From: Bacteroidales bacterium
GTDB taxonomy: Bacteria; Bacteroidota; Bacteroidia; Bacteroidales; GWA2-32-17
Assembly (NCBI GenBank): GCA_026417155.1
Contig: JAOADU010000037.1
Location: 1 to 46,762, forward strand
Length of the DNA: 46,762 bases
Direction of reading: 5' to 3'
The notes beneath the pieces are model-generated. The model was not told the DNA's origin and made no database searches. It saw nothing but the letters and a program-made list of their open reading frames with translations. The first letter of the stretch is position 1; every line of letters starts with the position of its first letter. Shown here one piece after another: positions 11,640 through 46,762 of this stretch. Both the position numbers and the translations under genes were made by a program.

Positions 11640-12152
11640 ATGGCAATAATAATACCCGTCTTGGGCAAAGAACCTTCATTTGGCCATGATTGCTTTTTAG
11701 CACCCAATGCAACAGTTGTAGGCGATGTAATAATGGGCAATTATTGTAGTGTATGGTTTAATGCTGTTGTCAGAGGTGATGTGCATTATATTCGCATCGG
11801 CAATTACGTAAATATTCAAGATGGTGCAATTATTCACTGCACTTATCAAAAAGCACCTGTAAATATTGGCAATTATGTTTCCATAGCTCACAACGCTGTT
11901 ATACATGGTTGTACTATTCACGATAACGTATTAATAGGTATTGGAGCTATTATTTTAGATAATTGCATAATTCACAGCAATAGTTTAATTGCTGCTGGTT
12001 CGGTATTATTAGAAAATACCATCGTTGAAGCAGGTAGTGTATATGCTGGAATCCCTGCAAAAAAAGTAAAAGATATTGACCCAGAACTGCTTAAAGGACA
12101 AGTTGAGCGTATAGCTCATAGTTATCAAATGTATGCAAGCTGGTATAAATGA
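11640..12152 (+). CDS. Gamma-carbonic-anhydrase-like left-handed beta-helix protein
   Basis: A 170-residue protein built of hexapeptide repeats ([LIV]-G-x4) that form a left-handed beta-helix, with a C-terminal helix (LKGQVERIAHSYQMYASWY). Three histidines that usually bind the metal in the trimer are kept: His66 (IIHC), His84 and His89 (IAHNAVIHGC). This is the YrdA/PaaY/CaiE-like branch of gamma-carbonic anhydrases. Many members of that branch have weak or no proven CO2-hydrating activity, so carbonic anhydrase is a family name rather than a demonstrated function. It begins 2 bp after the kinase-like gene and overlaps the transglutaminase-like gene by ATGA. Confidence 0.88.
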   Translation: MAIIIPVLGKEPSFGHDCFLAPNATVVGDVIMGNYCSVWFNAVVRGDVHYIRIGNYVNIQDGAIIHCTYQKAPVNIGNYVSIAHNAVIHGCTIHDNVLIGIGAIILDNCIIHSNSLIAAGSVLLENTIVEAGSVYAGIPAKKVKDIDPELLKGQVERIAHSYQMYASWYK

Positions 12153-13582
12153 AAGCACTATTTTTTATTTTAATTAGTTTTTTGGTTTTGCTAAGCATAT
12201 TTTTTTCTGTAAAAAATAATAATGAACCGCCTTATTATTACAATTATTCCGTAACATTGAACGATACGGTTTCTACCACTCCTTTTTTTTATATATTAAA
12301 TTCTAATAATAAAGACGTTTTTTTAACATTTAATTTCAATAATCAATTTTTAACCTCTTATCAATTGCCAAGAATTACAGATACCACCTCTTTTGTAAAA
12401 AATTATTTTAATTTTTTTACCAATCGATTATCTCATTTAGATTATTTAAACCAACATCATATAGAACCTCTTGTTCGTTATAATTCTCTGGGTGTAGGCT
12501 TGTGCGGAAAACTTTCTAAAATCTTTTGTTTTACCATGACCTACAATGGAATTCCTTCACGATTGCTTTACTTAAACGGACATGTTGTTTGCGAACTATA
12601 CTATCAAAATCAATGGCATTTATTCGACATAGACAGAAAAACATTCTTCGAGCAGAATCAAAATATTCTATCATTCAAACAATTACTTTCTGACATGGAT
12701 AGCATAACATATTTATCTGCAAATGAATTTTTACTTTATTCCACTCAAATTAATTATTACAAAAATTTATACTCTACTACTCTCGACAATTTTTATGATT
12801 CTATTGCTAACGTCGTAAACGATAGCTTGATTATTCAACTTCCACCTAAAAGTACATTAGAAATTCCTGTTTACGACAACAATAGTATTGACCCTTTAGA
12901 TTCATATCATGCGTTTTTAAGAATCACTATTCATGATCTTAATAACAAGATATTTCTTCAAAATCCATTAGTTATCTCCAAAATTGAAGGTACAGGTCGA
13001 GTGTACTACAATCAACAAACTTATACTTTCCCTGATGATTCAATTCGTTTCAAATTCGATATTTTAACAAATTACAATTATCAAGAAGAAATTACTATAC
13101 TACAGATTAAAGATTCTTTATCTATTTATTATAGAATCAATCCGCTATTAGTAAAGCCATCTAAATTCAATGAATTTGATTGTTATTCTTCGTTACCACT
13201 AATTATAAAGCCTACTATTAAACAAATCACCCAACCATCAATTAAATTATTTGAACAAGCAATTATTGAAGATAATAATTTTTTATGGTTAAAGAAGCAA
13301 CTTCCCTTTTTACCTAAGCAACCTATCTTTTCCGTTTATTACTCATACATCAGCCCAAAACTTTCAAAACTTCAAATTGATTCAATAGGAACAAAAAATA
13401 GAATTGCTTTAATAAACGAGTTATTTTTAGATAATAATGTAATGTACGACGAAAATTCGTATTATACTATCTGGTATTGGATTTTATTTATGGATAATGA
13501 TGAATTTATGCGTTCGTATAACTTTTATTACAAATACTATTCTTTCTTAAAACTTATCCATGAATATCAATCGAAGTCATAA
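12149..13582 (+). CDS. Exported or membrane-anchored transglutaminase-like protein
   Basis: A 477-residue protein with an N-terminal hydrophobic segment (residues 3-21) that acts as signal or anchor. Residues 115-162 show the transglutaminase/cysteine-protease core: GVGLCGKLSKIFCF with Cys119, then GIPSRLLYLNGHVVCEL with His145, then WHLFDID with Asp160. Spacing and flanking residues (GIPSR before the His, W before the Asp) match bacterial transglutaminase-like enzymes, which may act as peptidases or cross-linkers. The regions on both sides match no family I know; the C-terminal 300 residues are rich in Tyr, Asn and Ile. It overlaps the gamma-CA gene by 4 bp and its end abuts the convergent envC-like gene. 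Confidence 0.7.
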   Translation: MKALFFILISFLVLLSIFFSVKNNNEPPYYYNYSVTLNDTVSTTPFFYILNSNNKDVFLTFNFNNQFLTSYQLPRITDTTSFVKNYFNFFTNRLSHLDYLNQHHIEPLVRYNSLGVGLCGKLSKIFCFTMTYNGIPSRLLYLNGHVVCELYYQNQWHLFDIDRKTFFEQNQNILSFKQLLSDMDSITYLSANEFLLYSTQINYYKNLYSTTLDNFYDSIANVVNDSLIIQLPPKSTLEIPVYDNNSIDPLDSYHAFLRITIHDLNNKIFLQNPLVISKIEGTGRVYYNQQTYTFPDDSIRFKFDILTNYNYQEEITILQIKDSLSIYYRINPLLVKPSKFNEFDCYSSLPLIIKPTIKQITQPSIKLFEQAIIEDNNFLWLKKQLPFLPKQPIFSVYYSYISPKLSKLQIDSIGTKNRIALINELFLDNNVMYDENSYYTIWYWILFMDNDEFMRSYNFYYKYYSFLKLIHEYQSKS

Positions 13583-34242: not shown

Positions 34243-34386
34243 GCAAAAAAATTTAACCATCAAAAATAATTACAAATATCTTTAATTTCAAAAATTCACA
34301 TAAAAAGTTTTTATATATCCTTGAAATCAAAAAGTAAATTCAAATCTTTTTTAAATCAGAAAAATTTTGTATTTTTAAATAAAAAA

Positions 34387-36021
34387 ATGTTATTTGCATA
34401 TATTGAAACGAACGCAATTTCTATTTTACATGATCCGGAGCCTTGTGCAAAAGATTTTATCAAATATTCGTCGGGTAATATCTTTCAAACAAACTTTGAA
34501 CAAATAACTTTTTTAATTGACAAAGAATCGCCTTTTCAACTATTTGAAGATAGCTCTTTAAAAATTCTTGTTTACGGTAAAATATACAACACAACCATTG
34601 AAGAAATTGCCAATCTTTATCGTACCAACAGTTATTTTAATACTTTCGATTACGGAACATTTCGCGGACATTATAATTTGTTTATTTACGATAAAAAAGA
34701 AAGAAAATTATTATTAATTACCGATCAGTTTGGACTATTACCCTTATTCATGTATAAATATAGTAGTATTTTCATTCTCACAACTGAATATGAAAGTATC
34801 TTAGCTCATCCACTTCCTAATAGTAAAATAAACATTGAAGCTATTTTAGACTATATTTACACGGGATCGTTAGTTAATAATACCTTTTTTACTTATATTT
34901 ATATGCTCCCTTCGTTTTCGGTTCATATTATTGATTTAAAATATTATACCATTTCCCGACATCGTCATTTAAATTGTTTTTCTACATCAAAAAATGATTC
35001 CATATCGTATTGGGTAGAAAAAATGACCAATGATTTTCGCGAAGCGGTTTCTTTAATTGCCAATGATCAATCGGAATTAAACATAATGCTCACAGGCGGT
35101 TTAGATACACGACTTATATTAGCTAACCTTACCGAAGAACAAAGAAAAAAAGCAAATTTTATTACGTTTACCGTTAATGGTGTTGATGTAAATGCCGATA
35201 CAGACATTCGTATTGCCAAAGAACTTGCCAAACAATATCAGTTAAAACATCAGATTGTTTCTCTTAAAGAAGTAGACTTGTGGAATAATTTCTCGCTCGA
35301 CAAATTTATTGAATGGAAAAATTATTGGAGAAAACATAATAACAAAAAATACATTTCGGGCTTATATGGTACTGAATTCTTAGGAGCCAAAGGATTTTAT
35401 CATTTGAAAGACCATGCTCCCTTTTTATTTACGAATCACACAACGGTTCTTCGAACCTTTAATGCATTGTATAAAAATTACTATTTACCAAAGAAGAATT
35501 ATTTAAAAGGCAAAGAACTAAATTCTCCTAATGTTTACTACGATCGATTGTATCAAATTCATTATTATACTCGTTCTTTTCTTTCGAATATTTATGGCGG
35601 ATTAGTTGGAATGTGGTATCAACCATTTACATTTACCAAAAAATTATATACTCCCTTTCTCGATACTAAAATGCTTGAAAATTACATGTGCTTGCCAAAA
35701 GAAATTATCAAAAAGCCTTATTACTTATACAATGAAATATATAAAACATCATTTTCCTCTTTCACAAAAATTCCTGTCAACAATACAAATTGCTTAATTG
35801 AGAATAGTCCTTTTGTTCTGAACAACGAAGGCATTTCGCCAGTTGATTATAAAAGCTTTCCCATTGATGATGTGTTAAAACTTCTATCAACAAAAGTATC
35901 GTTTCCACTTTTTGACTTAAGAGAGATTAGAAGAAAAGAAAATGTTAGAATGAAAACTCTTGTTCTTAATTTTTACTTATGGTTGTATGGTACATTTTAT
36001 CCCGATAAAATTATAATTTAA
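34387..36021 (+). CDS. Asparagine-synthetase-like protein without glutaminase cysteine
   Basis: I start at the ATG at 34387 (544 residues); the track's TTG start adds 22 Lys/Phe-rich residues without support. The N-terminal part follows the class II glutamine amidotransferase fold (GTFRGHYNLFIYDKKERKLL, then ITDQFGLLPLF) but starts MLFAYIE, so the nucleophile Cys2 of AsnB is missing. The C-terminal synthetase part has the ATP-pyrophosphatase loop LTGGLDTRLIL (235-245), in place of SGGLDSS. It should adenylate a carboxylate and transfer an amine, perhaps free ammonia. Relatives occur in lasso-peptide, antibiotic and surface-glycan clusters. It converges on, and overlaps by 11 bp, the acyl-assembly operon. 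Confidence 0.8.
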   Translation: MLFAYIETNAISILHDPEPCAKDFIKYSSGNIFQTNFEQITFLIDKESPFQLFEDSSLKILVYGKIYNTTIEEIANLYRTNSYFNTFDYGTFRGHYNLFIYDKKERKLLLITDQFGLLPLFMYKYSSIFILTTEYESILAHPLPNSKINIEAILDYIYTGSLVNNTFFTYIYMLPSFSVHIIDLKYYTISRHRHLNCFSTSKNDSISYWVEKMTNDFREAVSLIANDQSELNIMLTGGLDTRLILANLTEEQRKKANFITFTVNGVDVNADTDIRIAKELAKQYQLKHQIVSLKEVDLWNNFSLDKFIEWKNYWRKHNNKKYISGLYGTEFLGAKGFYHLKDHAPFLFTNHTTVLRTFNALYKNYYLPKKNYLKGKELNSPNVYYDRLYQIHYYTRSFLSNIYGGLVGMWYQPFTFTKKLYTPFLDTKMLENYMCLPKEIIKKPYYLYNEIYKTSFSSFTKIPVNNTNCLIENSPFVLNNEGISPVDYKSFPIDDVLKLLSTKVSFPLFDLREIRRKENVRMKTLVLNFYLWLYGTFYPDKIII

Positions 36022-36946
36022 AAACCTTTTTCATTACCCTTAGCTTATACCACCAAACAGACCAAAACAAAGATTTTAACATATACCAATTCATTAAAAA
36101 ACCATTTTTTACAAATTTATACTGACACCCATACACAAGAATTTCATATTCGGCAGCTACTTGCTGATAAATTTTATGACGGTATTGTTTATAGAACGAA
36201 TCTTGCAACAACCATTTTAAAATTCGTATATTGTTCTCTATAAATTTTATGTTCGACACGCTTTTGCTTAATCCTTTTTCGTGGTCGTAATATACCGACC
36301 ATGGCTCATTCATGTAATAAAATTTGCTGTTTCTGATAATATACAACTGAAAAGCCCAACTAAATGAATATATCGGTAGAGTATAACGACGAAAAAAATC
36401 ATGAAATTCCATTTTTCTAAACACGAGCGATGCTGTAGGAATAATGTTTCTGGATATTAATTTGTTAGGTAAAAAAATAGCATCATAACGATTAAACTGG
36501 CTGTAATATTTCCATTGATGATGTGCTTGGTTTCTTGCTTGTTCGTCTTCTGATTTAACCGCATCAGAAATAATTAAAGCGTCGTGAAAACAGCCAACAA
36601 AGTCCGAATTTTTTTCTAAAAATTCTACTTGTCGTTGTAATTTATATTCGTAAACCCAATAATCATCGGCATCGAGCCAACAAAAATATCGTCCTTTTGC
36701 ACAATCTATTATTTGTTTTGCTCTTACAATAGGCCCTTTACATTCGGCATTTAATAATAGTCTTATTGTTTGAGGATGCTGTTTATAGTAATTTTCTAAA
36801 ATGATTGGCGTTTTGTCGGTACTATTATCATCGCATAAAATTAATTCATACCGATACGACGTTTGTTGAGAAAGAACTGATTCTATCGCTTTTTCAATAG
36901 TTTTTTCATGGTTGTAAGAAAGAATTGCAACCGTTATATCTATCAT
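36011..36946 (-). CDS. GT2 glycosyltransferase
   Basis: A 311-residue GT-A enzyme. The N-terminus DITVAILSYNHEKTIEKAIESVL and ELILCDDNSTDKTPIILE bind the nucleotide, and FCWLDADDYW carries the metal-binding DxD. The C-terminal part is rich in Trp, Tyr and Lys and may touch the membrane, but no clear transmembrane helix is seen. Donor sugar and acceptor are unknown. It is the last gene of the acyl-assembly operon and its start overlaps the acyl carrier protein stop by 4 bp (ATGA). That coupling suggests it glycosylates the product made by the upstream genes, or a sugar that then receives the acyl chain. Confidence 0.87.
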   Translation of the reverse strand: MIDITVAILSYNHEKTIEKAIESVLSQQTSYRYELILCDDNSTDKTPIILENYYKQHPQTIRLLLNAECKGPIVRAKQIIDCAKGRYFCWLDADDYWVYEYKLQRQVEFLEKNSDFVGCFHDALIISDAVKSEDEQARNQAHHQWKYYSQFNRYDAIFLPNKLISRNIIPTASLVFRKMEFHDFFRRYTLPIYSFSWAFQLYIIRNSKFYYMNEPWSVYYDHEKGLSKSVSNIKFIENNIRILKWLLQDSFYKQYRHKIYQQVAAEYEILVYGCQYKFVKNGFLMNWYMLKSLFWSVWWYKLRVMKKVFKL

Positions 36947-37188
36947 TTGTTTATTTTCGATTGTATTAAGTTAACTATATCGTTTAAATAAACAATTTGT
37001 TTTAATTGTTCGTTTTCTACTTCTATATTGAATTTTTCTTCTACATCAATAATAATATCTACCAATCGAGCAGAATTAATTTTCAAATCATTCGCAATAT
37101 GAGGATTGTCGGGCAAATTCTCGAATACCTTTTTATTTATTGCGTATTTTTTTAGTATAGTTAATATTTCTGTCTTCAGATTTTCCAT
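36943..37188 (-). CDS. Acyl carrier protein
   Basis: An 81-residue acidic, four-helix carrier protein. The phosphopantetheine serine lies in KINSARLVDIIIDVEEKFNIE, corresponding to the DSLD...ExxF.I motif of ACPs; here the Asp before Ser is Asn, and Leu is replaced by Ala-Arg-Leu. It therefore differs from a housekeeping AcpP and looks like a dedicated carrier. It should carry the growing acyl chain between the ketosynthase, dehydratase and reductase encoded upstream. It starts 1 bp after the ketosynthase stop and overlaps the GT2 gene. Confidence 0.88.
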   Translation of the reverse strand: MENLKTEILTILKKYAINKKVFENLPDNPHIANDLKINSARLVDIIIDVEEKFNIEVENEQLKQIVYLNDIVNLIQSKINK

Positions 37189-37189
37189 A

Positions 37190-38467
37190 TTATATTGATT
37201 TTAATATTATTACTGTGTTTGTATCGCCAAAACCGAAACTCGATTTAGCTATACAGTGCAAAGATAAATTTTTTTTGGTTTGTTGTACAATTTTTTCACA
37301 ATTAATTAAATTTTGTATTTCTGGATGCACATCTTCACAATTTAATGAAGGATGCAAGAACTGATGTTTTAGTTCCAAGACAGCAGCAATAGTTTCTATT
37401 GCTCCTGCGGCACCTATAGTATGGCCTATCATAGATTTTAATGAGTTAATAAAAGGGAAGTTGTTGTCATTGGAATTTAACGCTGCTTTCCAGTTTCTAA
37501 TTTCCAATACATCTGCCATTGTTGAACTTAAATGTCCTGAGATAGCTTGCACTTCCGTTTTTTCAACATTTGCATCTTTCAATGCTGCTTCAATACAACT
37601 TACAACACCTTCCGATGAAGGAGCAGTCATGGTCCCTCCATTTCTCTGACCTCCGCTATTTATCCAAGCACCTGCTATTTCGGCATATATGGGGGCGTTA
37701 CGATTCATAGCTGTCTCATACTCCTCTAATACCAATATTCCGCATCCTTCTGCAGGCACAAATCCCGATGCAGTTGCACTCATAGGCCTGCTTGCTTTTT
37801 GTGGTTCGTGATTGTGATTTCGGGTTGTTACTCTCATCGCATCAAAACCTGCCCATGCTGCAGGCGAAAAAATATCTACTCCGCCTACTATCATCCTTTT
37901 GGCATAACCGTGTTTTATATGTCTATAGCCCATTGCAATTGCCTCTGAGCCTGTCGAGCATGCCGAAGAATTAAAACCTATCCAATTGGCTAAACCCAAT
38001 ATTCCAGCCAAATTTGCTGAAGGGGCACTCAGCATGCTATGCTCTACAATGGTACTTCGCAGCCTACGCAAACTTTTCTGATGCACTGCTGGCAATATTT
38101 TTTGCTCGTATATATCGACTGTGCCAATAGCACTCCCAATAATTATTCCTGTTTCCGTATCGGGATTATTTTCGGGCGTTTCGGGTATAGGCAATCCTGC
38201 ATTTTCCCATGCTTCTAAGCTTGCTACAACCGCATATTTTACTACATTGCTTGCATCGGTAAGAAGAAATTGTTCTAAATACGAGTAATATGGCGATTGA
38301 TTGATATTTACTATTCCCCCTAACTGACAACCAAAGCCAATTTCTGCTAGCACCTGAATATGTTGTAAACCACAATTGCCTTCTTGTAAGCTCTTTAAAA
38401 ATTCAGATAATGAATTGCCGATGGGGCTTAAAATTCCCATTCCGGTTATTACAACTCTACGATTCAT
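37190..38467 (-). CDS. Beta-ketoacyl-ACP synthase (FabF-like)
   Basis: I start at the ATG at 38467 (MNRRVVITGMGILSPIG), the normal start of this family, not the GTG at 38482. In this 425-residue numbering the Cys-His-His catalytic set is complete: Cys170 in FNSSACSTGSEAIAMG, His312 in ISGHLSSTMADVLE and His349 in KSMIGHTIGAAGA. It should condense an acyl starter or chain with malonyl-ACP. The second motif GHLSST differs from the common HGT-T, so it is likely a specialised paralogue rather than the housekeeping FabF, as in aryl-polyene or polyketide-like clusters. It overlaps the dehydratase gene by 11 bp and precedes acp by 1 bp. Confidence 0.9.
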   Translation of the reverse strand: MNRRVVITGMGILSPIGNSLSEFLKSLQEGNCGLQHIQVLAEIGFGCQLGGIVNINQSPYYSYLEQFLLTDASNVVKYAVVASLEAWENAGLPIPETPENNPDTETGIIIGSAIGTVDIYEQKILPAVHQKSLRRLRSTIVEHSMLSAPSANLAGILGLANWIGFNSSACSTGSEAIAMGYRHIKHGYAKRMIVGGVDIFSPAAWAGFDAMRVTTRNHNHEPQKASRPMSATASGFVPAEGCGILVLEEYETAMNRNAPIYAEIAGAWINSGGQRNGGTMTAPSSEGVVSCIEAALKDANVEKTEVQAISGHLSSTMADVLEIRNWKAALNSNDNNFPFINSLKSMIGHTIGAAGAIETIAAVLELKHQFLHPSLNCEDVHPEIQNLINCEKIVQQTKKNLSLHCIAKSSFGFGDTNTVIILKSI

Positions 38468-38912
38468 AAATTGAAAAAGCACATTGAATTCGTGAAATAG
38501 CTACTAAATTGTTCATGTCGTCGTATAAATGATTGATGGAAGCAATGTTAGTTTTTTTTATATAATCTAGCTCCGACTCCACATATACGAGCGTATTAGG
38601 AAAAACAGGATAAAAATAGTTAGATTCTACTAATCCGAGGATCGGCTCAAATTTTTTCTTTGATTTATGCAAATTAAACAAATAAATACCATGCAACACG
38701 CATCCTACTTGCCCCATGCATTCCAATAAAATTGCTCCGGGAGTAAGAGGTTTGTGAGAAAAATGTCCCTTGTAAAAATCATGGTTTTCGTGAAAAAAAT
38801 ACGAAGCTTTAACCTTTTGTTCGTCTATATAAATAATTCTATCGATAAATAAAAATGGTTGTTTATATGGCAATGTTTCGAGTAATTCTTTATGTAAATT
38901 TTCAATAGACAT
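38457..38912 (-). CDS. FabZ-like 3-hydroxyacyl-ACP dehydratase (hotdog fold)
   Basis: I start at the ATG at 38912 (MSIENLHKELLETLP; 151 residues). Upstream of it the bases GGAGGAGAGGGAA form an unusually strong Shine-Dalgarno for this phylum, though they also encode the Gly-rich end of the reductase gene. The alternative ATG is 38927. The fold is FabZ/FabA-like: PFLFIDRI, then GHFSHKPLTPGAILLECMGQ, with catalytic His50 and Glu64. It should remove water from 3-hydroxyacyl-ACP. The motif is looser than housekeeping FabZ (HFPGxPVMPG), in line with a specialised role. It overlaps both neighbours in the operon. Confidence 0.83.
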   Translation of the reverse strand: MSIENLHKELLETLPYKQPFLFIDRIIYIDEQKVKASYFFHENHDFYKGHFSHKPLTPGAILLECMGQVGCVLHGIYLFNLHKSKKKFEPILGLVESNYFYPVFPNTLVYVESELDYIKKTNIASINHLYDDMNNLVAISRIQCAFSIYES

Positions 38913-39684
38913 TTCCCTCTCCTCCATCTATGGGAATAATTTGTCCGTTTAACCATGAAACATTGTCGTCGATAAGTTGCACAAGCAATTTAGCAACATC
39001 TTCAGAAGTTGTAAGCCGATGATAAGGATTTTTAATTTTTATCTCTTCTATAAACTTTTCTACTTCGGGAAAAACTCGAATCGCCTTTGTTTGTACCACA
39101 CCAGGACACAGCAAATTGACAGTGATTCCATAAGGAGCCAATTCGTAAGCCATATACCGGCATAAGGTTTCTAATACTGCTTTAGCTGCCCCCACTGCTG
39201 CATAATGAGGAATCGTACGATGGCTTCCCATGCTCGTAAACGAAAACACTTTCGCATTGGAGGCTAATAAATCTTCACGAAAAAGCCATTGTGTCCACGT
39301 AGCAAAACTTATACCCATTGAGTTTATGGTATATTGTAAATCTTCTTCGCTTAAAGTTTCGTTTTCTTTAGAGAATAATGGCTTTACGTGTCCATCGGCT
39401 ATGGAATGTATAAATATTTTTATACTTTTTTTGTCAAAACTTTGCAAAAATGATTTTAATTCTTCCTTTCCTTCTGTTGTATTGATGTTGATATTAAGCG
39501 TATGAATTTGAACAGAATATTCGGTTTTCCACGATAAAATTTGTTCATTAAAACTTTTGGTAGCTATTCGTCCGTCTCGATGAATAATAATTAAATGAAA
39601 ACCTTTTCGTGCAAGTTCATAAGCACAAGCATTTCCTATGCCACTCGATCCACCAAATATAAGAGCCCAATTTTTAGAACTCAT
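38902..39684 (-). CDS. Short-chain dehydrogenase, enoyl-ACP reductase type (FabL/FabI-like)
   Basis: A 260-residue SDR, first gene of the acyl-assembly operon. The N-terminus ALIFGGSSGIGNACAYELA binds NAD(P), and IFIHSIADGHVKPL forms the next strand. The active site reads HYAAVGAAKAVLETLCRYMA: Tyr161 and Lys168 are six residues apart (Y-x6-K), the signature of enoyl-ACP reductases (FabI, FabL), whereas ketoreductases such as FabG use Y-x3-K. The tail GVVQTKAIRVFP and DVAKLLVQLIDD, ending NGQIIPIDGG, also resembles FabL. So I call it an enoyl reductase, though a ketoreductase cannot be fully excluded. TAAGTTTG lies 10 bp upstream. Confidence 0.75.
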   Translation of the reverse strand: MSSKNWALIFGGSSGIGNACAYELARKGFHLIIIHRDGRIATKSFNEQILSWKTEYSVQIHTLNININTTEGKEELKSFLQSFDKKSIKIFIHSIADGHVKPLFSKENETLSEEDLQYTINSMGISFATWTQWLFREDLLASNAKVFSFTSMGSHRTIPHYAAVGAAKAVLETLCRYMAYELAPYGITVNLLCPGVVQTKAIRVFPEVEKFIEEIKIKNPYHRLTTSEDVAKLLVQLIDDNVSWLNGQIIPIDGGEGNVY

Positions 39685-39694
39685 GTTTTTTTTG

Positions 39695-39702
39695 CAAACT
39701 TA
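39695..39702 (-). promoter_or_regulatory. Candidate -7 box (TAAGTTTG) for the acyl-assembly operon
   Basis: On the minus strand TAAGTTTG matches TAnnTTTG and ends 10 bp before the start of the reductase gene. Just upstream is the terminator of the giant protein gene, so a promoter is needed here. No -33 TTTG is visible in the A/T runs behind it. Confidence 0.4.
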
Positions 39703-39723: not shown

Positions 39724-39755
39724 AAAAGAGGCTGTCTTTCAATACAGCCTCTTTT
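39724..39755 (-). terminator. Intrinsic terminator of the giant T9SS protein gene
   Basis: AAAAGAGGCTGT (39724-39735) pairs perfectly with ACAGCCTCTTTT (39744-39755) across an 8-base loop. Read on the minus strand, it lies 27 bp after the giant gene's stop and runs into a stretch of T residues. The perfect 12-bp stem makes it a strong intrinsic terminator. Confidence 0.85.
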
Positions 39756-39782: not shown

Positions 39783-39995
39783 CTATTCGACGATGAGCTT
39801 TTTATTTACAGTGCGTTCATTAGTTATAATACGAACATTGTAGATTCCGCTTGGCAATCCTTTGAGCGATAGTGTATATTTGCTGTTTGTTGCAAACGAC
39901 TCACTTACCACACGACCATCCATTGTAACGATTTGTATGGTTGCGTTATTTAACTTGCCCAAGGAAACTACAGTATAACTATGAGCTGGATTTGG
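39783..39995 (-). other. T9SS type A sorting (C-terminal) domain
   Basis: About 70 C-terminal residues of the giant protein. The opening VNPNPAHSYTVV, then IQIVTMDGRVV, then LPSGIYNVRI and the basic end NERTVNKKLIVE follow the type A sorting signal of the type IX secretion (Por) system. Presence of this domain implies that the organism has a T9SS encoded elsewhere. Confidence 0.9.
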
Positions 39996-42900
39996 ATTTA
40001 CTGTAATCATGTTGTTCCATTCTTGTTGTGCCAACGCAGTAGGAATTACATGTAATATATTAGACATTGCCGAGCATCCATTAACATCAGTTACAACAAC
40101 AAAGTAATCATCTTCAACTGCTACAACATAGTAATTGTTAGTTGCTCCTGCAATAGGTCCTTGCGAGTTATACCATTGATTTCCAGAAGGCGATGAAGAG
40201 AACAACGTATCACCATTTTGAGTAATAGCTGCTGTAGGCAACGAATGTATTGTTAATGTAGCAGCCGTTGGTGCACTTACGCAACCATTATTTATAGCAA
40301 CCACATAGTAGGTATAGGTGCCAGGATTGGTTTCTGTACTTTGGTAAGTTGAGCCTGTACCTATTTGATTGCTTAACTGTGCATCGCTATACCAATTAAA
40401 TTGATTATAATTAGATGTTGCTACGAAAGGATCTATGGTTTCGCCCATACAAGCATGAACATCATTAACTATAGGAGCATTGGGTGTTTGTATGGGAGCA
40501 GGATTTACTGTAGCAGCATTACTTGTACAGTTGCCCGAAGTATACGTTACCGTAACAGGATTTGCGTTGTTTACAATAATAGATGGAGTGGTTTCGCCAG
40601 TGCTCCAATTTAATGTTCCTGTATAATTCGAGGCTGTTAAAGTAGATTGATCACATGAATTGTTAACAGTAACAGTCGGAGCAGGTAAACTATTAACAGT
40701 AACCGTTATATTAGCCGTATTTGTACAACCTTGATATGAAGTAACGGTTACAGTGTATTGTGTTGTAGCCGAAGGAACATCGGTCGGGTTACTTAATGTT
40801 GAAGTAAAGCCAAGAGGTTGTGATGTCCAGCTAAATGTATTTGCTTTAAACAAATTCATTTTAGCATTATCAATTGCCCAATAATATCCCCAACTTGCAT
40901 CGTACACAAACCGTACTTTCAAATTAGGATTATTCAGATACGTATTAGGAACAGGAACAGTTGCATTAGCAAAATTATTGGCAGCACCTTGTGTTGTTGT
41001 CCAGGTTTGCAATGTTGTCCATTGTGTTCCATCAAATATCTCAACTTTGATGCTGCTACCCGTATAATGACGATAATAATGCTGGAACTGAATTGTCATG
41101 GTATCAACTCCTACACTGCTAAATACATCAGATATAAGTTCTGTGTGAGTTGTTCCACCATTACCTTGTTCATCAGAGTTAGATAAGATAAATTTGCTGT
41201 TATCTGGGCTTTGGAAAGTTGTTCCACCATAAACATATCCACTGGGGCGAACAGTCCATGCTGCAGCAGCTGCATTACCACCCGTCGAAGTATTCACGGT
41301 TGTGAAACTGTGAGTTGTTCCGTTGAAGCTTTCTAATAATACTTCGGGTGTATACATATTTCCAGCATTGAGCTGAACAGTTTGACCACAGGTAATAGTA
41401 TTAGGTGTTGCTGTAGCTGTAGCTACGGGAGCAGGATATATATTCAGATTAATGTCGTTAAATGCCACACAACCCGTTTGTGAATCGCTGGCTGTAACAG
41501 CATAATTAGATGTTGTTGATGGGGAAACAACAATTGAATTGCCTGTCTGATTGTTGCTCCATGTATAAGTATAATTCGAATTATTGCTTTGTGCCTGAAG
41601 GGTAATGCTTGTACCTGCACAAACATTATTTGCTGAGGCAACAATATTTACAGGATCAGGAGTTGCATAATTTACATTTACTGGTTCTCTTACACCGGTA
41701 CATAACGAAGTTACCTGCCAATTATAAAAGTACATTCTTGTACCACCGGTAATGTTATTTCCGTTTACTGTATTTCCTGTAATAGAGAAACCTTGATTTG
41801 TGTATGGGTAGCTATAAGTTCCTGCACCTCTGTATATGTTTAGATTATCGTAATATAGCATCCAACCGGTTGTATTTGCAGGAACAAAGAAATTCAATAC
41901 GAGTTGTTTCTTTGTAGTATTGCTTATATCGGCAGAAGTAATTGTAAAGGCACGTGCATCCACAACTTGGGTTAAATTATTTACTAAGTAAACATTTAAC
42001 GTTCCGGCAGTAGATGGATAAATTTCGACAGAATTAATGATAACAGCATTTGTTGTAGCAAAATACATACCATAACCTGTAAATGGAGTTAGTGCAGCTG
42101 ATGGATCATTTAATTTACCCACATTAAAGGTTGATAATACTTCGTAAGGTTCGGCATAATACGAAGCAGGTCCGGTTAAAACAGGTGTTGTATAATTTTG
42201 ACCCGAAGCAATAGGATAGCCACCTGTTGCTTGATTATACCACAATATGCTTGTTGTGGGATTGCTGGGTGTTGCACTTAAAACAACAGACCCCGAACCA
42301 CAAATATTACCATGAGTTACACCTGCTATTACAGGACTTGTTACTTCGATGGTAACAGTATTCTGTACACATGTATTTGCACCTATCGAAGCAGTAAACT
42401 TGTATTGAGTTGTACTATTAATTACTGGTGTTGTCAGTGAAATTCCATTGGCACCGGAAATTGCAGTCCAGTTAATGCCATCTGTCGATTCGTACCATTG
42501 TAACATTGCTGTTGACCACCCACTCGATGGGTTGACAGAAATGGTTGATGAGCCCGATAAGCATATTTTCGATGGTGTAGCGGTTAATGTTACAGATGAT
42601 GGAAGAACAGTAATCGTTACATTGTCGGTAGTAGCACATTCCGTTACAGTATTATAAGCATTGCAGATATAAGCATGATTTCCTGCTGTGGTGGTTTTGA
42701 AATATACCTGTGTTGCATGGGTTCCACTTGTATAAGGTACGGTACATGCAGCATCGGTAAAGAGATTTGCAGCAGGTGTCCAGGTAATCTGATCGTAATT
42801 GCTTGCACCACTTGTTACTTCTAACAATACTGTTTCGTTATTGCATACGGTAACATCGTCGGTAATAGTAATCGGTGTTGAACTTGTAATATTTGCAGTA

Positions 42901-45900
42901 ACTGGTACTCTGGGACCAGCACATATATTTACACCATTGATTAACATATTTGGCCTGTTCTGACTGACTGTTGCTGAAGTAGTAGTTGGGCATGCATCCG
43001 TATTATCTGCATACCTGAATGTTGTTGAATTGAAGCCTGTATTGGTAAATGTTGTAGAAGCATTATATGTATAAAATGTGCCACTTCCAGTTGGATCGTT
43101 GCTAAAGCATGTTTCAACAATAATATTCGATACGCCATCCCATACAAACGGAGTAGTAAATACATGCGTATTAGCGCCAACAACCGGTTGATAATCGACA
43201 GGTCCATATACTGAAACAAACCCGGTACTTTCAAATGTATTGGTTAAGGCAGTAATATTTGTCGGAGCAATACGAATAGTAAAGGCTTTATGTATTCCTG
43301 CACCATTCAAATTCGTTACATTGAATGTGATGGATTTGAGTAATCCGGCTTTAAATCCTGCTGCAGTCAATTCGGATGCTAAAATTAACATCTGGTGTTT
43401 GGAGCTTTCGTAATAATTGCCATATACAGCCGGATAACCTGTTGATGAATTTGCTGTTGTTCCAGTTCCAATCTGACCATTTACATTGGTTTGCAATTCA
43501 GCTGCAGCATAATAAGTAGTTGTTTGGTTTATAACAGGCGTTGTAAATGTTGTGCCTGTGCCCAATACATTAAAACCTGTTAGAGCATCGTACCAAACAA
43601 CCTGAGCATTAGTTGAAGCCGTTGCACCCAATTGTACTGTACCAGTACCACAGCGACTTCCATTCGTAGTTGTTAATATTGTTGGATTATTTACATTTAC
43701 TAAAACATTTTGTTGCAAACATACCGAAGATCCCGCATAAGCTGTAAACTGATAATACGTACTTTGATTAATTACAGGTGTATTGTAGGTTAAGCCTGTT
43801 GCACCTATGATGTCGGTATAATTTACTCCATCGGCCGATTGTGCCCACTGGAAGGTAGCTGTGCCCCACCCTGTATTAGGCGATACACTTAATAAAGAGC
43901 TTCCCGACTGACAAAAATCATTGGGCGATGCAGTAATACTTACCGTAGCAGGCAACGTGACAACTGTTGTGGTTGCTACGTTGCTACATTGAGTTGATGT
44001 GTTGTTGGCTGTACAAGTATATGTTACACTACCTGCAACATTCGTTTTGGCATATACTGTAGTAGCACTTGTTCCGGAAACATACGGAACGGTACATGCA
44101 GCATCGGTAAATAATCCGGTAGCAGGTGACCATAAATATTCATCAAAATCGGCTAAATTTGATGTTACTTGTATGGTTGCTACAGCATTATTGCATACAG
44201 TTTGATTTGGCGATATAGTAAGGGGTGCTGCTGCATTAACGGTAGCAACTACCGGAACGCGAGCACTTGGACATTGTTGCATTGTTGTTCCATAAAAACG
44301 TGTATTGATACGATTAACATTTACACCAAAATTTGTAGGAGTAGTCATCGCACATCCTGTACCATTATCTTGATATCCATAAATATGCGAATTGAAGGAT
44401 GTATTTGTATATTGAATATGAGTGGAAGTAGAAAATGTAGAATTATTTCCATAGCAAATTTGGATAACAATATTCGACACACCATCCCAATTAAACGGAG
44501 TGGTTAATGTAATAGTTTGCCAGCCTGTTGCAGAAAAAGTGAATGATGAATTTGAAAAAACTTCTGTCAATCCAGTTATATAAGATGTTGTTAGGGAATT
44601 ATTGGTTGTTTGCCCCATTAAAATTTTGAAGTTTGTCATCGCAGGCGAGCCAAGGCTAACAATATTAAATGCCAAGTCGGTAATATTGCCTGGCATAAGG
44701 TTCATTGCAGATAATTCACTGGCTAAGAATAAATATTGATGTTTGCCATCTTTCCAATTTGTACTGAATGGTGTTTGGGCTGCTGCTGTTGAAACGTTAG
44801 TTTGTGTTCCTGCCTGCACATAACCGGGCGATAATAAAATATTATTTGCTTGTGCATAGAACGTCGTAGTTGAACTTATCGAAGGTGTGTTAAAAGGAGA
44901 ACCTGTACCTAACAGAGTTCCTCCTGTGGGTGCATTAAACCATTGAATAGCATTGCCGGTACCAGTTGCTTGTAAGGTAACCGATCCTGTACCACAACGC
45001 ACACCGGGAGTTGTAGAGGTTATTTCGGTAGCAAAATTGATATACACCGGCGTAGAGTATGCTGTTTCGGGTCCATTCAAACAGGTAACCATGCAACGGT
45101 AATAAATAGGAGCATTAGGAGTTACGTTGTACGAGGAAGCTGTTGCACCCGAAATATTATTATAGGTTGTACCATCCGTTGAGCTTTGCCATTGATATTG
45201 CACACCCGTACCCGATGGAACATTTTGAATAGTAAGCGTTACACTTTGTCCAAAACATATTGGCGGAGTGATCGAACTTAATGTATTGCCCGGTGCTGGT
45301 GTAGTACACGTATAAGCAGCTGTACCTTCAAATTCGTCGGCGCCAATGTCGGTAGCTGTTCCCGAACCTGTGTATCCTGTTTCACCCCAACGTATATCAT
45401 TATCAATATCGGTAGTAATAGCAGGAGTAGTAATTTTTTGCCCCGAGCTTTCAATCATAGTTGGTACGGTGGTTTGAATATGCAAATCGAATGGTGGAGT
45501 AGTTATATTAACAAATGGAGGCATTACACTAAACGAAACATTATCTCGAGGAGCAACACGAGTTTGAAAAGCATTTATAGTTTGGTCGGCATTGGTACCA
45601 TCGTAAAATATTAAATTAGAAGGACCAGGTGTGCCTGCAAAAAAGTCATTGTTGTTTGAAGTATTAGCATAAGATGTTAAAGTAGTGGCATTTCGACGAT
45701 ACGCTACCGTAAATCCCGTTCCTTTAGCTTGTGAAGTATTTACCACAATATTGTTACGTAAGTCTAAGGTAGGAGTTGTTGAAGCACTTATACCAGAAGA
45801 GCCAAATAATGCTGCAGAACTTGTTGTATTGAGGTATATCGTATTGTAATATGCATTAACGGTTGTTCCACCAGTAATATTTAACCCTATAACAGCATTG

Positions 45901-46762
45901 GCAGCATTGGCTTGAGTGGCTTTTAAGTCGCTGATAAAGTTATTATATATGTTTACCGTAGTTCCGTTTGCTATATAAATTCCGCCTACTGTAGGATTAG
46001 AGCTTAAGGTCGATAAATTGTAAATATTGTTTCTGAAAATATTCACTAATGAAGGTGTAGCAATTGAAATATTTATTCCATAGACCGTTCCAGAAGTACC
46101 CCCTGTTGTTCCTGTGCTGTTTAAATTGTACACTTGATTATTTGAAATTTCAATTGTGCCAACAGAACAAAATATACCATTGAAGGTTGCACCGCCTGCA
46201 CCTCCCGTAGTTGTGTAAAAGTTATACACTTGATTGTTTTGTATAATTTTATTTCCAGCTACACCATATTCTCTAATTCCGTTGATTGTCCCCGTAGTGG
46301 GAATATATAAATTACGAATGGTGTTGTTAGTAACAGCCACATTTACAGCACTACTAAAACTGTAAAATGCATCTATGCTTCCTGTCGAAGATGTGTTTGT
46401 CCAACCAATGTTTTCAATTAAATTTCCATCAACAACCAAACTTTGCGGACTTGTTGTTTTAATAATTCTCCACGAACCACTCCCTCCATTTCTTGTTAAG
46501 TTTTGAATTACATTGTTCTTTGCGTTGGCATTGGTTGGCGATCCTGTTTCAATCATTACATGAGTTCCTGTCCCTCCTAAGTCCACTCCGGCAATTTTTG
46601 TAATCGTATTATTGTTAATGTTAACGGTAGCAGCTGTTGCTGAGTTGTTGATGGCAGTATAAATACCCGTTGTTGCAGTTTGATATCCGACATAAATAAC
46701 ATTGTTGTTGATATTAATAGTATTGGACGCAGCCGTTGAGCCAATTCCATTATCTATTGCAG
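39783..46762 (-). CDS. Giant T9SS-secreted surface protein (partial, N-terminus outside window)
   Basis: The track starts this at a GTG at 46586, but the frame stays open to the window edge (I translated 46587-46762 without a stop), so the true start lies outside; at least 2326 residues. From the N-terminal side: Asn-rich parallel beta-helix repeats (to about 45650), a link with DIDNDIRWGETGYTG, three tandem modules of about 450 residues made of Ig-like and jelly-roll domains, a MAM-like jelly roll (about 41350-40850), more Ig-like domains, and a T9SS type A sorting domain (VNPNPAHSYTVVSLGK to the end KLIVE). The last part is cleaved on export and links the protein to the cell surface. Probably an adhesin; ligand unknown. 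Confidence 0.9.
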   Translation of the reverse strand, partial: AIDNGIGSTAASNTININNNVIYVGYQTATTGIYTAINNSATAATVNINNNTITKIAGVDLGGTGTHVMIETGSPTNANAKNNVIQNLTRNGGSGSWRIIKTTSPQSLVVDGNLIENIGWTNTSSTGSIDAFYSFSSAVNVAVTNNTIRNLYIPTTGTINGIREYGVAGNKIIQNNQVYNFYTTTGGAGGATFNGIFCSVGTIEISNNQVYNLNSTGTTGGTSGTVYGINISIATPSLVNIFRNNIYNLSTLSSNPTVGGIYIANGTTVNIYNNFISDLKATQANAANAVIGLNITGGTTVNAYYNTIYLNTTSSAALFGSSGISASTTPTLDLRNNIVVNTSQAKGTGFTVAYRRNATTLTSYANTSNNNDFFAGTPGPSNLIFYDGTNADQTINAFQTRVAPRDNVSFSVMPPFVNITTPPFDLHIQTTVPTMIESSGQKITTPAITTDIDNDIRWGETGYTGSGTATDIGADEFEGTAAYTCTTPAPGNTLSSITPPICFGQSVTLTIQNVPSGTGVQYQWQSSTDGTTYNNISGATASSYNVTPNAPIYYRCMVTCLNGPETAYSTPVYINFATEITSTTPGVRCGTGSVTLQATGTGNAIQWFNAPTGGTLLGTGSPFNTPSISSTTTFYAQANNILLSPGYVQAGTQTNVSTAAAQTPFSTNWKDGKHQYLFLASELSAMNLMPGNITDLAFNIVSLGSPAMTNFKILMGQTTNNSLTTSYITGLTEVFSNSSFTFSATGWQTITLTTPFNWDGVSNIVIQICYGNNSTFSTSTHIQYTNTSFNSHIYGYQDNGTGCAMTTPTNFGVNVNRINTRFYGTTMQQCPSARVPVVATVNAAAPLTISPNQTVCNNAVATIQVTSNLADFDEYLWSPATGLFTDAACTVPYVSGTSATTVYAKTNVAGSVTYTCTANNTSTQCSNVATTTVVTLPATVSITASPNDFCQSGSSLLSVSPNTGWGTATFQWAQSADGVNYTDIIGATGLTYNTPVINQSTYYQFTAYAGSSVCLQQNVLVNVNNPTILTTTNGSRCGTGTVQLGATASTNAQVVWYDALTGFNVLGTGTTFTTPVINQTTTYYAAAELQTNVNGQIGTGTTANSSTGYPAVYGNYYESSKHQMLILASELTAAGFKAGLLKSITFNVTNLNGAGIHKAFTIRIAPTNITALTNTFESTGFVSVYGPVDYQPVVGANTHVFTTPFVWDGVSNIIVETCFSNDPTGSGTFYTYNASTTFTNTGFNSTTFRYADNTDACPTTTSATVSQNRPNMLINGVNICAGPRVPVTANITSSTPITITDDVTVCNNETVLLEVTSGASNYDQITWTPAANLFTDAACTVPYTSGTHATQVYFKTTTAGNHAYICNAYNTVTECATTDNVTITVLPSSVTLTATPSKICLSGSSTISVNPSSGWSTAMLQWYESTDGINWTAISGANGISLTTPVINSTTQYKFTASIGANTCVQNTVTIEVTSPVIAGVTHGNICGSGSVVLSATPSNPTTSILWYNQATGGYPIASGQNYTTPVLTGPASYYAEPYEVLSTFNVGKLNDPSAALTPFTGYGMYFATTNAVIINSVEIYPSTAGTLNVYLVNNLTQVVDARAFTITSADISNTTKKQLVLNFFVPANTTGWMLYYDNLNIYRGAGTYSYPYTNQGFSITGNTVNGNNITGGTRMYFYNWQVTSLCTGVREPVNVNYATPDPVNIVASANNVCAGTSITLQAQSNNSNYTYTWSNNQTGNSIVVSPSTTSNYAVTASDSQTGCVAFNDINLNIYPAPVATATATPNTITCGQTVQLNAGNMYTPEVLLESFNGTTHSFTTVNTSTGGNAAAAAWTVRPSGYVYGGTTFQSPDNSKFILSNSDEQGNGGTTHTELISDVFSSVGVDTMTIQFQHYYRHYTGSSIKVEIFDGTQWTTLQTWTTTQGAANNFANATVPVPNTYLNNPNLKVRFVYDASWGYYWAIDNAKMNLFKANTFSWTSQPLGFTSTLSNPTDVPSATTQYTVTVTSYQGCTNTANITVTVNSLPAPTVTVNNSCDQSTLTASNYTGTLNWSTGETTPSIIVNNANPVTVTYTSGNCTSNAATVNPAPIQTPNAPIVNDVHACMGETIDPFVATSNYNQFNWYSDAQLSNQIGTGSTYQSTETNPGTYTYYVVAINNGCVSAPTAATLTIHSLPTAAITQNGDTLFSSSPSGNQWYNSQGPIAGATNNYYVVAVEDDYFVVVTDVNGCSAMSNILHVIPTALAQQEWNNMITVNPNPAHSYTVVSLGKLNNATIQIVTMDGRVVSESFATNSKYTLSLKGLPSGIYNVRIITNERTVNKKLIVE
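41650..45270 (-). repeat. Three tandem ~1.35-kb modules inside the giant protein gene
   Basis: The anchor [RI]CG[TS]G occurs at about 44995, 43648 and 42300, a spacing of about 1347-1348 bp. Each module has an Ig-like domain opening FCxSGSS/ICFGQS, the CGxG Ig-like domain ending TTxYxA, a jelly roll with KHQ.L.LASEL and WDGVSNI, and a domain with VCNN...FTDAACTVPY. The FTDAACTVPY stretch is nearly identical at DNA level in modules 1 and 2 (around 44100 and 42745). In module 3 the jelly roll is replaced by an unrelated sequence and the FTDAACTVPY domain is not seen. Confidence 0.8.

Follow-up and report, generated by a model that had tools for sequence, protein, structure and literature searches.

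The operon and its genes

The analyzed stretch of DNA (hereafter, the window) comprises 46,762 nt of a Bacteroidales bacterium (assembly GCA_026417155.1, contig JAOADU010000037.1). It carries five adjoining open reading frames (ORFs), encoding a short-chain dehydrogenase/reductase (SDR), a dehydratase (DH), a ketosynthase (KS), an acyl carrier protein (ACP), and a family 2 glycosyltransferase (GT2), which are the subject of this work:

38902–39684, minus strand: SDR, most likely a FabL-type enoyl-ACP reductase, Y161-x6-K168 (NCBIfam, PDB match, Y/K conservation)
38457–38927, minus strand: FabZ-like 3-hydroxyacyl-ACP dehydratase (DH), start at 38927 or 38912 (PF07977, 51.4 bits)
37190–38482, minus strand: FabF-like KS of a distinct family (PF00109/PF02801)
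36943–37188, minus strand: ACP with an INSAR motif and the phosphopantetheine Ser39 (NCBIfam ACP subfamily, 9e-10)
36011–36946, minus strand: GT2 glycosyltransferase with a DADD motif (PF00535, 5.6e-26)

A preliminary description of the sequence had recognized one compact operon here, and recomputation returned the same coordinates, strand, and spacings. The SDR and DH genes overlap by 26 bp, or by 11 bp if DH starts at its second ATG. The DH–KS overlap is likewise 26 bp, or 11 bp if KS starts at the ATG at 38467, which is the more likely start as compared with the GTG at 38482. The KS and ACP genes are separated by 1 bp, and ACP and GT2 overlap by 4 bp. The SDR/enoyl reductase, FabA/FabZ, KS, and GT2 assignments were backed by both Pfam and NCBIfam. 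For the ACP, no Pfam model was reached, but NCBIfam acyl carrier protein models do match.

Catalytic residues and the identity of the reductase

The alignments of KS, DH, ACP, and SDR confirmed that the catalytic residues are kept. C175-H317-H354-K349 of the KS were invariant in 92 aligned sequences, H55 and E69 of the DH in 80, and S39 of the ACP in 63. For the SDR, Y161 was found in 53 and K168 in all of the 54 aligned sequences. The best NCBIfam model for the SDR was FabL, with 148.8 bits versus 93 bits for the best FabG model. This score is below the NCBI equivalog cut-off of the FabL model (328), and the protein is therefore a FabL relative, not FabL itself. Its sole PDB match under 1e-20 was Bacillus subtilis FabL (3oic, E = 1e-26). 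Judged by these comparisons, the SDR is most likely a FabL-type enoyl reductase. Ketoreduction must then come from elsewhere, and it is probably borrowed from FabG. The operon has no thioesterase, malonyltransferase, or ketoreductase, in line with the preliminary description, and FabG sits elsewhere in the genome.

Separation from housekeeping and aryl polyene-type genes

The genome (2.44 Mb, 90 contigs, 94.5% complete) holds its own FabF on contig C44, an LpxC-FabZ-like ORF of 500 aa on C3, FabG with Tyr-x3-Lys on C57, and FabI on C5. The preliminary description had regarded the operon as specialized unless its genes proved to be the only fab genes of the genome; given the separate set, an assignment to the housekeeping type II fatty acid synthase (FAS) was ruled out. 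Its other reservation concerned flexirubin and aryl polyene clusters, which resemble the operon in their type II FAS-like KS, DH, and ACP but require several KS genes. The genome contains two bona fide KS genes, the operon KS and FabF; a third hit reached 21 bits over 48 positions. With only one KS besides FabF, both pathways are excluded. No ammonia-lyase or aryl-CoA ligase was seen among the ORFs of the window by inspection; the rest of the genome was not searched for them. There was no phosphopantetheinyl transferase (PPTase) near the operon, and the sole PF01648 hit in the genome was an unlinked Sfp-like gene of 200 aa on C1. A blastn comparison with plasmids found no plasmid-borne relatives.

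A ketosynthase family with three clades

In a comparison of 60 relatives, the KS orthologues scored 436–685 bits, versus at most 197 bits for every other KS. Orthologous operons, with a KS identity of 52–71%, were present in each of the four genomes sampled from the genus and, in a scattered fashion, in other families. Conservation across genera, which had been put forward as support for a system, was thus found, and this recurrence indicates that the arrangement exceeds chance. The KS family itself is scattered: in a sample of 198 genomes from across the order, 7 carried it.

A scan of GTDB genomes yielded at least 561 confirmed KS relatives, and the best 80 loci were kept for comparison. SDR, DH, KS, and ACP were grouped together in most of these. 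A solitary paralogous KS with no module around it (L045/L060, from one organism) was left out of the counts of module loci. The KS tree, obtained with a quick method whose program flagged long branches, gave three supported clades. The Bacteroidales clade is linked to GT2 and has 19 rows including the window (Shimodaira–Hasegawa-like approximate likelihood ratio test, SH-aLRT, 97). The gene order SDR-DH-KS-ACP-(PPTase)-GT2 is kept within it. Its GT2 subfamily carries the YSQFN.Y and IIPTA motifs and forms a 15-member cluster that, among the loci compared, is confined to this clade. The Desulfobacterota/Spirochaetota clade is linked to β-ketoacyl-ACP synthase III (KASIII) and FabD, and the Flavobacteriia/Saprospiraceae clade to a type III polyketide synthase (PKS); both have an SH-aLRT value of 99.

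These different partner genes imply that the cassette is shared and that its end user varies. By gene neighborhood, the SDR-DH-KS-ACP module serves in at least three contexts. This four-gene core of the operon is widespread, and other phyla have other end users for it. The Flavobacteriia clusters (L053, L064, L066, etc.) have an orthologous SDR-DH-KS-ACP with a KS identity of 46–50%, often accompanied by a PPTase. Their end user is the type III PKS with a flavin adenine dinucleotide (FAD)-dependent oxidoreductase and a methyltransferase, and they differ from the window's system in having no window-family GT2, PglD, DegT, or window-type radical S-adenosylmethionine (SAM) protein.

Some features of the relatives stand apart from the window. 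In L053, L064, L066, L069, and more than 30 further Flavobacteriia/Saprospiraceae loci, the sister cassette adjoins the type III PKS, the FAD-dependent oxidoreductase, the methyltransferase, and a PPTase, which is a conserved cluster, apparently uncharacterized, for a phenolic or pyrone-type lipid. In Syntrophia, Smithella, and Spirochaeta (L058, L063, L089, L098, L109, etc.), the cassette occurs with KASIII, FabG, FabD, and a PlsC-like acyltransferase in varying combinations. Two loci hold a tandem KS pair of the window's family in a single operon (L052, 8731–11278; L057, 8734–11278). Both tandem KS proteins have the catalytic Cys, so they are not a typical KS/chain-length-factor pair.

Surface-glycan partners of the Bacteroidales clade

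The Bacteroidales-clade loci, which come from several related families, repeatedly hold GT2, an asparagine-synthase-like (AsnB-like) gene, a radical SAM/SPASM protein (cluster c21), and a twitch-domain radical SAM protein (NF033640-like). They also contain a DegT aminotransferase (c27), a PglD/NeuD-type hexapeptide acyltransferase (c23), a nicotinamide adenine dinucleotide (NAD)-dependent epimerase (c47), the ABC-2 exporter pair Wzm/Wzt (ATP-binding cassette, ABC), and, in several loci, a PPTase. Of these partners, only an ABC ATPase and a PPTase cluster were also found at the 71 module loci outside this clade. The aminotransferase and the NeuD/PglD-family acyltransferase share a locus with the module in L038, L040, L042, L046, L051, and L057, and the Wzm/Wzt pair is present in L040, L051, L057, L161, L164, L169, and L171. 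In the window's genome, the orthologues of the radical SAM, PglD, DegT, and epimerase genes are mutually adjacent on contig C62, and twitch radical SAM genes lie on C61 and C5. By orthology, the glycan system is present in this genome but dispersed. The link to sugar chemistry suspected at the outset was thereby upheld, while the operon did not prove to be a stand-alone unit, as its glycan-system partners are elsewhere in the genome.

Across the 60 relatives, the radical SAM gene was found in 10 of 10 KS-positive versus 2 of 50 KS-negative genomes (p = 8.8e-10), and PglD in 10 of 10 versus 3 of 50 (p = 3.8e-9). Genome G004, which appeared to be radical SAM-positive and KS-negative, was rejected as a counterexample: its contig ends inside DH, and SDR-DH lie beside the radical SAM gene. 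In G175, which belongs to another family, radical SAM, SDR, KS, and DH form a single run.

Proposed function and its alternatives

Drawing on the gene content, intact residues, orthology, neighborhood, and co-occurrence observed above, we propose, with a probability of roughly 0.58, that the operon is dedicated to supplying acyl-ACP for the N-acylation of an amino sugar in a surface glycan exported by an ABC transporter. All reactions, their order, the acyl acceptor, and the chain length we infer as follows. A PPTase, locus-encoded in several relatives and represented here only by the Sfp-like gene on C1, would charge the dedicated ACP. Housekeeping enzymes would provide the malonyl units by which the KS extends a short starter. 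Housekeeping FabG would reduce the ketone, the operon DH would dehydrate the product, and the FabL-type SDR would saturate the double bond. Owing to the DH and the enoyl reductase, the acyl-ACP would be fully reduced, and a saturated chain is predicted. The DegT aminotransferase and the epimerase would make a nucleotide sugar, and the PglD/NeuD-like hexapeptide-repeat acyltransferase of C62 would place the acyl group of the ACP on the amino group of that sugar. GT2 and other transferases may then insert the acylated sugar into the glycan, with export through Wzm/Wzt. The radical SAM/SPASM and AsnB-like proteins could alter either the sugar or the acyl group in some manner. The expectation that the chain ends up on, or carries, a sugar survives in this form, most likely through the PglD/NeuD-type acyltransferase, but no observation shows the acyl chain itself to be a substrate of GT2.

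Several points weigh against N-acylation of an amino sugar. PglD/NeuD enzymes often take acetyl-CoA. The acyltransferase gene lies outside the operon, and on another contig in three of the four genomes of the genus, which leaves co-occurrence and analogy as the basis for acyl transfer to the sugar. Genomes G056 and G009 have PglD with no KS detected, and PglD may accordingly act without the module too; both assemblies are fragmented, and G009 is 74% complete. No Wzm/Wzt pair adjoins the window's operon, and the candidates on C44 and C19 are not linked to it. Finally, a single family contributes 8 of the 10 KS-positive genomes and so inflates the p-values computed per genome; the p-value of 1.9e-4, obtained after collapsing the genomes to families, is the fairer figure.

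The module could instead build a specialized lipid or lipid anchor, such as a glycolipid, with the chain going to a membrane acceptor, GT2 glycosylating the lipid, and the polysaccharide genes being separate neighbors. The pairing of the same module with a PlsC-like acyltransferase in the Desulfobacterota clade speaks for this, as does the position of GT2 directly after ACP or PPTase wherever a locus extends that far. However, the Bacteroidales-clade loci showed no PlsC-like acyltransferase cluster, the hexapeptide acyltransferase with its PglD N-domain co-occurs in all KS-positive genomes, and the sugar aminotransferase, epimerase, and Wzm/Wzt of the same loci suit a polysaccharide. We regard the lipid as unlikely. 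A small diffusible metabolite, in which the ACP-bound acyl group would be altered by the radical SAM/SPASM protein, joined to an amine by the AsnB-like enzyme, and then glycosylated, would account for the radical SAM/SPASM protein as a constant partner and for the AsnB-like and carbamoyltransferase genes of some loci; AsnB folds are known in beta-lactam-synthetase-like use. Yet the condensing, adenylating, and releasing enzymes typical of such pathways were not seen in the loci, where an ABC-2 type exporter and nucleotide-sugar enzymes predominate, and this makes the metabolite less probable still.

The least probable alternative, to which we give very little weight, is that these are redundant or stress-specific fatty acid synthesis genes making no product of their own, such as a FabL/FabF back-up that tolerates inhibitors. 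FabL-type reductases are a known alternative enoyl reductase, and the genome has its housekeeping FabI. A dedicated ACP, the scattered distribution within the order, and the tight co-occurrence with glycan genes do not suit a back-up.

Comparison with known systems

The closest known parallels are two sugar-acylation loci. In the Pseudomonas syringae island vioA/vioB/vioS/vioR/acp/vioT(/vioM), the genes of a private ACP, ketosynthase, and reductase accompany those of a sugar aminotransferase, the acyltransferase VioB, and a glycosyltransferase; together they give an N-acylated amino sugar, and deletion of vioR abolishes the acylated sugar (PMC3927599). As in that island, the window's ACP and KS are dedicated and apart from the housekeeping set. 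No Tyr-x3-Lys reductase is found in the operon, so it differs in having no dedicated ketoreductase of the viosamine kind. The KASIII-type VioS and the ketoreductase VioR produce a 3-hydroxybutanoyl group, whereas the FabF-type KS, DH, and FabL-type reductase of the window predict a saturated chain; the target of the island is the flagellin glycan (PMC3927599). Unlike the island, the window's system has its genes at more than one locus and includes radical SAM and AsnB-like proteins.

The R1-group genes of Flavobacterium psychrophilum, from the same phylum, resemble the window's in gene content: an O-antigen locus that encodes KS, ACP, and an acyltransferase homologous to PglD (PMC6519341). For wfpC–wfpG, the authors propose that the PglD homologue WfpG transfers the acyl group from WfpD, the ACP, to UDP-Qui2NAc4N (PMC6519341). 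That set has two KS proteins and a ketoreductase, with no DH or enoyl reductase mentioned, and its product is 3,5-dihydroxyhexanoyl; its glycan follows a Wzx/Wzy pathway, in contrast to the ABC exporter of the window-type system (PMC6519341).

The principle of a private ACP/KS supplying an N-acyl amino sugar is already known, and the enzyme set of the window differs. A search confined to openly licensed full texts found no paper matching the enzyme set (FabF-type KS, DH, and FabL-type enoyl reductase, with no ketoreductase), the radical SAM partner, or the cassette with three end users. A broader and more tentative proposal, which we hold to be possible but doubtful, is that a portable FabL-type reductase-DH-KS-ACP cassette has been recruited to at least three end users (the type III PKS, a KASIII/acyltransferase lipid-type pathway, and a Bacteroidales surface glycan), with the radical SAM/SPASM protein taking the acyl chain or the acylated sugar as its substrate to yield an undescribed acyl-decorated polysaccharide. 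If the function proposed for the operon is right, a single acyl-ACP cassette would serve polyketide, lipid-type, and glycan pathways. The KS family together with the PglD/NeuD acyltransferase and radical SAM/SPASM would be a sequence signature for custom-acylated surface polysaccharides in uncultured Bacteroidota. Genome-mining tools would also call for caution, as such KS/ACP operons may be surface-antigen genes rather than secondary-metabolite genes.

Neighboring features

Three further features of the window lie around or apart from the operon:

39724–39755, minus strand: terminator-like hairpin, 12-bp stem followed by a T-rich tail
34321–36021, plus strand: AsnB-like protein, likely start at ATG 34387 (PF13537 partial, PF00733)
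12149–13582, plus strand: weak transglutaminase-like protein, cluster c37 (PF01841 below cut-off)

Directly upstream of the operon, at 39783–46586 on the minus strand, lies the gene of a large immunoglobulin-like surface protein sorted by the type IX secretion system, with Ig_7 repeats and a Por secretion tail. The terminator-like hairpin would end this gene, setting the operon apart. The Bacteroidota -7 consensus is TAnnTTTG, and one copy was seen on the minus strand at 39695–39702, just upstream of the SDR start; it is weak evidence, with about 0.8 occurrences per kb in the window. A sigma-70 promoter scan gave hits no more numerous than in shuffled sequence.

The AsnB-like gene is convergent with GT2, and their stops overlap by 11 bp. 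Its protein is without the N-terminal MCG of a glutaminase and is 27% identical to one encoded in the orthologous locus L040. Homologues of the c37 protein lie in the orthologous loci L036, L046, L052, and L057. An AlphaFold model of this protein, built on four sequences, had a mean pLDDT of 40 and was set aside. The putative active-site Cys and His are not kept in all members of this family, which was present in 7 of 10 KS-positive and 0 of 50 KS-negative genomes. From this distribution, the c37 protein is a probable distant partner of the operon.

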